Shown piece by piece: positions 2,120 through 4,457 of a DNA stretch of 32,154 nt. The DNA comes from Acidithiobacillus sp. (GTDB taxonomy: Bacteria > Pseudomonadota > Gammaproteobacteria > Acidithiobacillales > Acidithiobacillaceae). The stretch lies in NCBI RefSeq assembly GCF_027322205.1, contig NZ_DAHVHY010000020.1:1-32154 (forward strand), written 5' to 3'. Each line of letters starts with the position of its first letter. Within the stretch, counting starts at the first letter, position 1. The position numbers were made by a program, and so were the translations under genes. A model generated the notes under the pieces. That model saw nothing but the letters and a program-made list of their open reading frames with translations. It made no database searches and had not been told where the DNA came from.

Positions 2120-2129
2120 GTGAACCTCC

Positions 2130-2888
2130 TTATTTGTCTTCTTTTGAAATCAGATTTGGAATGTAGCGACAGGCAGATTGTGGAGATGCATGTCCACCAA
2201 CAAATGATATCTGCTCACCAACATAAACATTCATCTGCGGCGGAACAATAGCGGTGGTGCGTACCCCGTAAGGCGCACCAGATGGGTGTACTACCGCCCT
2301 AAGATTATCCGTATATTCAGGATCGATTTTTCCATTAGCCAACTGCTCAGAGCGCGTAATAAGATTTCTGGCGATAGCTGGCGGAAGAAAACCAACGACT
2401 CTCCCGGATACTGGAGGTGGCACATTCAAGCGCACCCGCATTGGTCCATTGTCATTACAATTCTGGTCAGCCTCAAAGAGTTGGCTGCTTATCATTCCCT
2501 GGCGCGGCACCAACGGCGAGGGTGGTACTGATGGTGTCTGTGCCTGCGGACGAAGCGGCTTCAGAACAGGCTGCGGTTCGACCCTGACCTGTGCTGGCGC
2601 GGCGGTGTGCACAACGGGTTCTGGTAACTTGTTGGAGACGATGGGTTGCGGCGGCGACAGCGCTGCAGATGATTGAGGCTGCGCCGCGGCAACATGCTGG
2701 GCATTCTGGCTGGTCATCGGGGCCCTTGCGGACGGAGTCGCTGCTCCCCACTGCCACGGAGGATAAATAAAAGTCACCGATGCAAACAGTCCGGCACCTA
2801 TGAGCGTCCATCGCCATAATGGAGCCTGTCGCCACAGATGACTGAAACTGCTTTTCAGCGATTTTTGCGGGCGGGGTCCGTCTATCAT
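2130..2888 (-). CDS. Proline-rich single-pass envelope protein of unknown function
   Basis: I do not recognise this 252-residue protein. Residues 1-27 are basic and residues 28-43 form a hydrophobic segment, suggesting an inner-membrane anchor with the rest in the periplasm. Residues 50-130 are low-complexity and rich in Pro, Ala, Gln and Ser, typical of a spacer across the periplasm. Residues 135-250 look like a folded domain with the only two cysteines (C144 and C240), which could form a disulfide. The gene starts 7 bases after the AAA+ ATPase gene and ends 10 bases before ispD, so it is probably cotranscribed with both. By eye the DNA is richer in A/T than mfd. A partner or substrate of the ATPase is possible but inferred only from position. 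Confidence 0.8.
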   Translation of the reverse strand: MIDGPRPQKSLKSSFSHLWRQAPLWRWTLIGAGLFASVTFIYPPWQWGAATPSARAPMTSQNAQHVAAAQPQSSAALSPPQPIVSNKLPEPVVHTAAPAQVRVEPQPVLKPLRPQAQTPSVPPSPLVPRQGMISSQLFEADQNCNDNGPMRVRLNVPPPVSGRVVGFLPPAIARNLITRSEQLANGKIDPEYTDNLRAVVHPSGAPYGVRTTAIVPPQMNVYVGEQISFVGGHASPQSACRYIPNLISKEDK

Positions 2889-2895
2889 GGTTATT

Positions 2896-4155
2896 TCACT
2901 CTGGACACGCTACCGGCCTAGCGAAAACAACGCCTTGGCCTTCTATCAATGCCACACATCTGGCCCCCTGTTGTTTAGCCGCTATCAAAGAGTCGGCAAT
3001 GGATTCTTCGATAGCACGCATGAGATCACGGGAAGAAGCCGTGTCGGCCAGTTTCTCCTGACGCTCCATTAACCGATACAGAATTTCCGGATCGATTCCC
3101 TGATCTGCTACCTGCAGTCCATAACCTTCGATCATCCGTTCTATTTCCAACGCGGTAACACGGGCTACATCCAAACCCGTCAACCGGGAGAAAACAAAAA
3201 TCCGGTCAATCCGACTGAGCACCTCCGGCGCAAATCCTGATTCCTTCAAGGTATTCGTGGAGGCTCTGCGCATCTCGTCAGGCGCTTGGGAGTACTGCTG
3301 GCGAATATCCTCCAAGACATCAATAGCGGCATTGGTGGTCAACACAAAAATGGCTCTTGTGGTAGATATCTGTTTGCCATCAGAAGCCTCTGTGATAAAC
3401 CCGTCGTTCCACGCCGTGAGAAATTTTTTATGGATTTCCGGATCGGCCTTCTCAATTTCGTCCAGCAACACGACAGCATCCGGGCTGTCACGCAGGCCAC
3501 TGGTGAGCTTGCCGTAATTGTCTGATCCCACGTACCCCCTGGGAGACCCGAACAAGGCCGTCCCCGCCATCCCCCTGGAAAATTGTGTCATATCAATATG
3601 AAGAAGTTTCCGCCCCAGCTCCGTTGCCAGGCGCTTGCCCATGTATGTTTTACCCGTTCCCGGATTCCCCGCGAACAGAAATATCCCGACAGGCTTCCCA
3701 CGCTGCTGGAGCGCCAAACGACGGCGAATCTGCGCCGCCAGATCGTCACAAATAGCATCCTGGCCGATCACTTTTGATTTGAGTGCATGGGAGAGGGCAT
3801 CCGCATCAATAAAGGTCGCATCCGCGTTGGTGCTGAGGCGTTCTTCCAGGGCCACACGATTGGTCAGGCGATCTAGAATATCCATGATCCATCTCCTCCG
3901 CGATATGGATTGCGGTAATCGTCCGGCATGAGACATCAGACTCAACACCGCCAACACCCCAAGACCTATGAATAACAACAACACGACAACCCAGACGCCA
4001 TAACGCACCAGCAGGTTCAGATGCGCGACAAAGGCGACTAGGCGTGATTGAATAAACGGCCAGTAAAGATGGAACGCTTTGGCGATCGCTAAAACCAAAA
4101 CCATTAAGAAAAGTAGCGGCAAATAGCGGTTGATCACCGAAAGCAATCGGCCCAT
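2896..4155 (-). CDS. Membrane-anchored Clp/Hsp100-type AAA+ ATPase
   Basis: This 419-residue protein has two predicted membrane segments (about 12-33 and 52-74) followed by one AAA+ module resembling the second ATPase domain of ClpA/ClpB. Visible motifs are Walker A GNPGTGKT (163-170), a GYVG pore loop (207-210), Walker B VVLLDEIEKA (228-237), sensor-1 VLTTNA with N275, a likely arginine finger in LSRIDRI (R315), and sensor-2 SSRDL (R376). The pore tyrosine suggests it threads polypeptides. It lacks the ClpA/B N-domain, the first ATPase domain and any protease domain, and I see no ClpP-docking loop. The ATPase domain is predicted to face the cytoplasm. The substrate is unknown. It is the first gene of the minus-strand run leading into ispD. 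Confidence 0.85.
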   Translation of the reverse strand: MGRLLSVINRYLPLLFLMVLVLAIAKAFHLYWPFIQSRLVAFVAHLNLLVRYGVWVVVLLLFIGLGVLAVLSLMSHAGRLPQSISRRRWIMDILDRLTNRVALEERLSTNADATFIDADALSHALKSKVIGQDAICDDLAAQIRRRLALQQRGKPVGIFLFAGNPGTGKTYMGKRLATELGRKLLHIDMTQFSRGMAGTALFGSPRGYVGSDNYGKLTSGLRDSPDAVVLLDEIEKADPEIHKKFLTAWNDGFITEASDGKQISTTRAIFVLTTNAAIDVLEDIRQQYSQAPDEMRRASTNTLKESGFAPEVLSRIDRIFVFSRLTGLDVARVTALEIERMIEGYGLQVADQGIDPEILYRLMERQEKLADTASSRDLMRAIEESIADSLIAAKQQGARCVALIEGQGVVFARPVACPE

Positions 4156-4194
4156 CCTTTACTTTTTCCTTTTGTTATTGTGATCTATGACCTT

Positions 4195-4212
4195 GACAGG
4201 TAGTTACCTGTC
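4195..4212. promoter_or_regulatory. Perfect palindrome, candidate operator
   Basis: GACAGGTA and TACCTGTC form perfect 8-base arms around a GT centre. The site is 40 bases upstream of the AAA+ ATPase start, where a dimeric repressor or activator could act on that gene. The factor is unknown; the size and symmetry suit a helix-turn-helix dimer such as a TetR-type regulator, which is a guess. A short-loop RNA hairpin is less likely because the loop would be only 2 bases. Confidence 0.5.
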
Positions 4213-4457
4213 TGTGCATCCACTTGGCACTTGGCCACTGCTCAGTGTGATCTGAGCCCCCATTTTGCCGATCCTACGGCGGTCGCCCATCACATTAAAC
4301 GATGCCCTGCCCACTTCGTCTCAAGGTTATCTCAGATTAACGTTCATTGCGACTGGTGCGCGCCCTCAGATTCTGGGCCGGGAGAGGGACCTTATGCTTT
4401 GGTGGCAACCGACAGGGGGCACAGGGCGAGAATTAGATTGTCGCTCGGTATCCCGTT

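Follow-up and report, generated by a model that had tools for sequence, protein, structure and literature searches.

We identified a gene module of many Gram-negative bacteria in which a membrane-tethered, single-ring AAA+ ATPase of the Clp type is encoded directly beside a single-pass protein whose outer domain is exchanged from locus to locus. The module lies in a 32,154-nt stretch of Acidithiobacillus sp. DNA (GCF_027322205.1, contig NZ_DAHVHY010000020.1, positions 1-32,154 of the forward strand; hereafter the window), and the module itself, meaning its genes, their adjacency and their architecture, is well supported. For its mechanism, our preferred reading, to which we give a probability of about 0.42, is that a single-ring motor of the HSP100/Clp type, tethered to the membrane, forms the core of a horizontally acquired module for envelope remodelling, with clients chosen by an exchangeable periplasmic domain.

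On the minus strand of the window, the AAA+ gene (gene B, 4155..2896, 419 aa) is followed after seven bases (2889-2895), the spacing originally reported, by the partner gene (gene C, 2888..2130, 252 aa) and after another 10 bases by ispD, with Pfam assigning the flanking genes as ispD-ispF and mfd. The whole pair and its upstream region form an insertion of ~2.3 kb between ispD and mfd (2130..4451, no strand assigned), present in 3 of the 17 genomes of the genus; ispD adjoins mfd in the remaining genomes, and closer species, the closest congener among them, carry ~70 bp in its place. Reading of the open reading frames revealed no insertion sequence within the insert, and G+C is about 0.53-0.56 in the pair vs. 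0.61-0.64 in the flanks. Two congeners carry homologues at 97-99% identity, the AAA+ homologue again having a close partner homologue adjoining it, and dS between carriers is lower for the pair (0.03-0.04) than for the adjacent ispD (0.12-0.16). The empty site in relatives, the low G+C and the dS below that of ispD point to horizontal acquisition of the pair in the window genome, perhaps with later exchange between species. Between congeners, dN/dS is 0.18-0.32 for the AAA+ gene, a clear sign of protein-level constraint, and 0.66 for the partner, a high value that stems from its spacer, where constraint is relaxed; judged by these ratios and by the close congener homologues, the pair is more than chance open reading frames. 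The pair reads towards ispD-ispF, stopping 10 bp short of the ispD start codon (window 2120-2129), and in carrier strains it may have taken over ispD-ispF transcription.

Gene B combines two membrane helices with one Clp D2-type AAA+ domain. A hydropathy scan places two N-terminal hydrophobic segments at residues 12-30 and 56-74 with a short intervening loop (3934..4122), and Pfam AAA_2 covers residues 154-318 (E = 1.2e-29); in NCBIfam it matches best to the second ATPase domain of ClpA and that of ClpB (E ~ 1e-43), and in PDB to the D2 domains of ClpE, ClpC and ClpB. Of the two profiles named at the outset, AAA_2 was thus recovered, while Pfam ClpB_D2-small is unlisted at E <= 1, though the NCBIfam ClpA alignment reaches residue 391. 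A 34-row family alignment spans the gene B proteins from end to end and shows no variation at the catalytic residues: Walker A, with the sequence GNPGTGKT (residues 163-170, 3646..3669; G163, P165, G166, G168, K169 and T170 invariant), the pore loop GYVGS (residues 207-211, 3523..3537; G207, Y208, G210 and S211), Walker B VVLLDE (residues 228-233, 3457..3474; D232 and E233), the arginine finger R315 (3211..3213), and likewise sensor 1 (N275) and R376, all features lying on the minus strand. The Walker motifs, pore loop, sensor residue and arginine finger first read from this one sequence are therefore kept across the family.

For gene B, Pfam lists no protease or peptidase domain, M41 included, the ClpP loop [ILV]G[FL] is absent between sensor 1 and the arginine finger, and there is no second AAA+ ring, which upholds the initial description of an anchored Clp-D2-like AAA+ protein without a protease. 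Against the curated NCBIfam families, gene B aligns to ClpA through one AAA+ domain only (149 bits vs. a cut-off of 993) and scores 131 bits against TssH (ClpV), whose cut-off is 885. A profile of the family itself gives its members ~530-650 bits (with one exception, G674, at 273), compared with 189 for the ClpB and 172 for the ClpA of the window's own genome. That genome separately encodes ClpB-like, ClpA-like, ClpX-like and HslU-like proteins, and gene B is therefore an additional motor. By its sequence, gene B belongs to the Clp/HSP100 superfamily, in the AAA_2 D2 type, sharing with the D2 domains of ClpA, ClpB, ClpC and ClpE the AAA_2 domain, Walker A and B, a GYVG-type pore loop, the sensors and the arginine finger, but differing in its single ring, its two N-terminal membrane helices and its lack of an N domain, D1 ring, M domain and ClpP loop; ClpA, ClpB and ClpV proper, in contrast, have an N-terminal domain and a pair of AAA+ rings. 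Two N-terminal membrane helices beside an AAA+ ring are also seen in FtsH and the membrane AAA+ proteases related to it, but gene B is of the AAA_2 instead of the AAA type and has no peptidase domain.

The partner is built from a constant N-terminal part and a swapped C-terminal one. In the window copy (all features on the minus strand), the motif LWRQAPLWR (residues 18-26, 2811..2837), a proposed docking segment, leads into a membrane helix (residues 24-41, 2766..2819), a Pro/Ala/Gln-rich spacer (residues 45-140, 2469..2756) and a folded C-terminal domain (residues 150-250, 2139..2441). The pattern L[WY]x5[WFY][RK] stands directly before the membrane helix in 50 of 55 partners, tandem paralogues included, against a shuffled mean of 0.15, and hydropathy finds one membrane helix at the corresponding site in 42 of 53 homologous partners. 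For the single-pass protein with a Pro/Ala/Gln spacer that had been described, the spacer is borne out by its composition (18 Pro, 15 Ala and 12 Gln among 96 residues), by an AF2 pLDDT mostly <50 across residues 68-130 and by its relaxed constraint; the helix is predicted by AF2 but is only marginally hydrophobic, being missed by a 19-residue hydropathy scan at a threshold of 1.6. The C-terminal domain is likewise folded in the AF2 model (block pLDDT 78-92), yet of the two cysteines placed in it only C240 lies within and is invariant among 8 relatives, C144 just preceding the folded domain. The partner has no match above Pfam or NCBIfam cut-offs. We assign its domain to an OB-like 'CxYIPN' class, with relatives at L016, L017, L018 and L034 and weakly at L039; its Foldseek matches (CspE/NfeD-type, E ~ 0.09-0.11) are not significant and serve as a hint only, and a PDB profile search with this class returned nothing significant.

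Beyond the spacer, partner C-termini are mutually unrelated among loci. Besides the 'CxYIPN' class of the window, we distinguish a 'LPLPxGxW' class, which is the commonest and for which a PDB profile search again gave nothing significant, Sel1 repeats (Pfam E down to 1e-57), weakly Ig-like (Big_9, E = 0.013), SPRY-like (ryanodine receptor SPRY, E = 0.004), PA14-like (E = 0.04) and BamE-like (E = 0.04) domains, these last four labels being tentative, and partners with no outer domain at all. Mapped onto the AAA+ tree, the classes form clusters and require nine changes where the minimum possible is six and the shuffled mean is 25, and the domains are therefore swapped, yet kept for long periods. 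From these comparisons, the conserved elements of the partner are the cytoplasmic/juxtamembrane motif and the membrane helix, whereas the C-terminal domain with two cysteines that had been described is, cysteines included, exchangeable.

Other loci show this layout in reduced and expanded forms. On Microvirga plasmid pMVF16-3, an unannotated 64-aa ORF right behind the AAA+ gene (L011:16017-16211) is a partner pared down to motif, membrane helix and short tail, its similarity to the window partner being confined to the first part of that protein, and the same short form occurs in four Microvirga chromosomal loci (L060-L063). Two tandem partner paralogues with a common N-terminal motif are found around one AAA+ gene at L038:10564-12336 and L041:1227-5339, and in rhizobial operons a fourth, apparently multi-helix membrane protein follows directly after a Sel1-type partner (L051:5146-6174 and L054:12030-13082).

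The first distant relative, on the Microvirga plasmid, has the same AAA+ protein with N-terminal membrane helices at 51% identity (tblastn). A motif-based scan of genome contigs with two short peptide patterns then gave at least 52 loci of the AAA+ family, a lower bound in which L011/L056, L012/L014 and L013/L015 are duplicates from the same record, in hosts including Burkholderiaceae, Dyella, Pseudomonas, Cardiobacterium, Moraxella, Stenoxybacter and rhizobia, as well as single metagenome-assembled contigs labelled, by label only, as Nitrospira, Acidobacteriaceae and Rokuibacteriota. Across the 52 loci the AAA+ stop and the start of the following gene are usually no more than a few bases apart, and ATGA-type overlaps are frequent, some automatically picked partner start codons being too early. 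In one further family, probably Acetobacteraceae to judge by gene content, the AAA+ gene is present in 32 of 150 genomes, at one copy per genome and in ~2-Mb genomes too, and the operon mostly lies between a rimP-nusA-infB-like cluster and ABC-transporter/aconitase-like genes, as read by eye; each of the 20 loci examined there has a motif-bearing partner after the AAA+ gene (the motif expression being slightly relaxed for one). The co-occurrence as neighbours that was originally proposed as a check is thus borne out, the partner being adjacent downstream almost always in at least 52 loci and in these 20.

A phylum-wide search that scored the four best candidates per genome recovered the AAA+ gene in at least one genome besides the window's among 398, and two scans of viral contigs revealed no relatives. 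A tblastn search of the whole partner against plasmids and phages found no match, because only the partner N-terminus is widely conserved. Matches to phage ClpA-like proteins and plasmid ClpL were rejected as relatives, showing generic Clp similarity only (about 30-35%). Several hosts resemble acidophiles or acid producers, such as the Acidithiobacillus of the window, the probable acetic acid bacteria, Paraburkholderia acidicola and a bog Acidobacteriaceae, a suggestive link to acid habitats that is an uncontrolled impression.

The two-gene description of the module needs revision, as many relatives carry a third gene. In 24 of the loci a member of the gene A family immediately precedes the AAA+ gene, and at L050 one lies downstream instead; none is found upstream at L016, L017, L018 and L034, nor in the window genome at E <= 1e-6. 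The gene A product has a single helix at its N-terminus and ends in a domain whose residues D183, D188, D190, D229, G233, G234, T236 and G254 are invariant; AF2 gives a confident eight-strand beta-sandwich. A PDB profile search returned nothing significant, and the best listed fold match, a CBM60 carbohydrate module (probability 0.87, E = 0.098), is not significant and a hint only. Among the 150 genomes of the further family, gene A occurs in 24, all within the 32 AAA+ carriers and at neighbouring coordinates, and in 0 of the 118 AAA+-free genomes (Fisher p = 3e-21, a value inflated by shared ancestry, as most carriers are vertical copies at one locus). From these gene neighbourhoods, the module is usually one of three genes and not intrinsically two, the window holding a version without gene A. 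A possible cousin on a mobile element lies at L071:4706-8832 (minus strand), where a divergent gene A precedes two AAA proteins, a membrane one of 357 aa and a CbbX-like one of 310 aa, the set adjoining a TraG/VirD4-like gene.

No profile in Pfam, NCBIfam or PADLOC names the pair or the module, database names for the AAA+ protein are generic ('AAA family ATPase'), and we found no description of the module in the open-access literature, a search mostly outside subscription papers. No T6SS genes are recognised in the window, and among the neighbourhoods read no T4SS or conjugation genes are recognised, the distant cousin at L071 being the one set beside a TraG/VirD4-like gene. Having looked for a match to a characterised secretion or conjugation complex, as originally proposed, and to a defence complex, we found none named that fits, and the module is apparently undescribed so far.

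The mechanism that we infer covers topology, physical docking, client choice and threading. Gene B would sit in the inner membrane by its two-helix hairpin, with the ATPase ring cytoplasmic; this placement, and that of the partner C-terminus and the gene A beta-domain in the periplasm, is predicted from hydrophobicity and charge. Gene C would dock on the motor through its LWxRAPLWR-type segment and membrane helix, which we take as the motor-bound part because they are constant, and would extend a disordered Pro-rich spacer into the periplasm, with the exchangeable binding domain at its tip, taken as the part bound by the outside world because it is not constant. Gene A, single-pass with its beta-sandwich domain and missing from the window, would complete the module in many of its versions. 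Recognition of a client, or of a cell-wall or outer-membrane ligand, would fall to the exchangeable domain, and ATP hydrolysis with pore-loop pulling would then unfold, remodel or extract a protein of the membrane or envelope, with no ClpP-type degradation. More tentatively still, we picture a trans-envelope machine in which an inner-membrane HSP100-type ring carries two periplasm-facing anchors, one with an interchangeable 'bait' domain, so that cytoplasmic ATP pulls on or remodels clients selected across the membrane. The role first suggested, in which the pair may extract or remodel envelope proteins while the partner senses or anchors, is reasonable given this anatomy. Two findings speak against our preferred reading: the membrane helix of the window partner is marginal, and the short Microvirga partners are without any outer domain, which is therefore not essential everywhere.

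The closest architectural parallel is GspB/OutB of type II secretion, which has a short cytoplasmic region, one membrane helix, a variable periplasmic linker and a small beta domain, and whose gene usually lies beside that of the membrane AAA+ protein GspA (GspA/GspB, or ExeA/ExeB; PMC9239104), although by analogy the partner would at most work like it. Secretins are encoded elsewhere in the window genome, and the pair might be an assembly factor that scaffolds or positions a structure of the outer membrane or cell wall, with ATP driving a conformational switch instead of threading; the AAA+ protein may indeed act without threading, like scaffold-type ATPases. We regard this as unlikely, if a real contender: gene B is AAA_2/Clp D2 with two N-terminal helices, whereas the GspA membrane segment comes after the ATPase domain (PMC9239104), the gene B pore loop is invariant, the outer domain is variable rather than fixed, the HR fold is not among the listed fold matches of the window partner domain, none of which is significant, and no secretion-system genes, type II included, are recognised beside the module in the window and the loci read. 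The same invariant pore loop would equip an HSP100 ring to act on the partner itself, gripping the short tail that gene C (or gene A) has in the cytoplasm and pulling the protein from the membrane so as to remove the periplasmic domain on cue, and the tail and juxtamembrane motif, on the predicted ATPase side, are the partner's only constant part. That motif suits a stable docking site equally well, however, and no protease is encoded to dispose of an extracted partner, which leaves such extraction of the partner distinctly improbable.

Patchy, partly mobile distribution and diversified binding domains would also fit a role in defence or conflict, with the swapped outer domain sensing a phage or rival and the AAA+ protein setting off a response, and NTPase conflict systems with a constant NTPase and a partner with swapped domains, some after a membrane helix and including Sel1, have been described (PMC7159879). 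Their ATPase class differs, though, and our module has no recognised vWA, MoxR, toxin-like or effector gene. PADLOC gave no match for the partner and only partial, generic AAA-domain similarity for the motor (DolB of Dodola at 68 bits, PDC-M37B at 89 bits), and long-term retention at a fixed locus across a whole bacterial family, at one copy per genome even in ~2-Mb genomes, argues against this explanation, which we consider very unlikely. An accessory role in surface or type I secretion, handling adhesins, RTX proteins or curli, seems to us the most remote of the alternatives; TolC, C39-ABC transporter and HlyD genes lie directly upstream at L032:3486-8504, RTX proteins near L038 (12417-20330), L048 (6528-12212) and L062 (8085-8687), a large M10 protease near L064 (3-3974) and a curli locus at L018 (12982-15988), but such neighbours occur in about six of 52 loci, counted without a background rate, and none is recognised at the window or the 20 further loci.

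The HSP100/Clp motors known so far are in the main soluble, have two rings and act as disaggregases or feed proteases. What is new here is the extent of this family, the constant partner motif set against a swapped domain, the association with gene A and the insertion between ispD and mfd. The operon occurs in non-pathogenic genera that can be cultured, Paraburkholderia, Dyella and Bradyrhizobium among them, and offers a concrete setting for the question of how ATP work is coupled across the inner membrane. If the envelope-remodelling reading is true, these genes would encode a conserved, membrane-fixed single-ring Clp motor whose partners combine a constant docking segment with periplasmic domains that can be exchanged, and bacteria would possess a modular way to aim an unfolding motor at different envelope targets.
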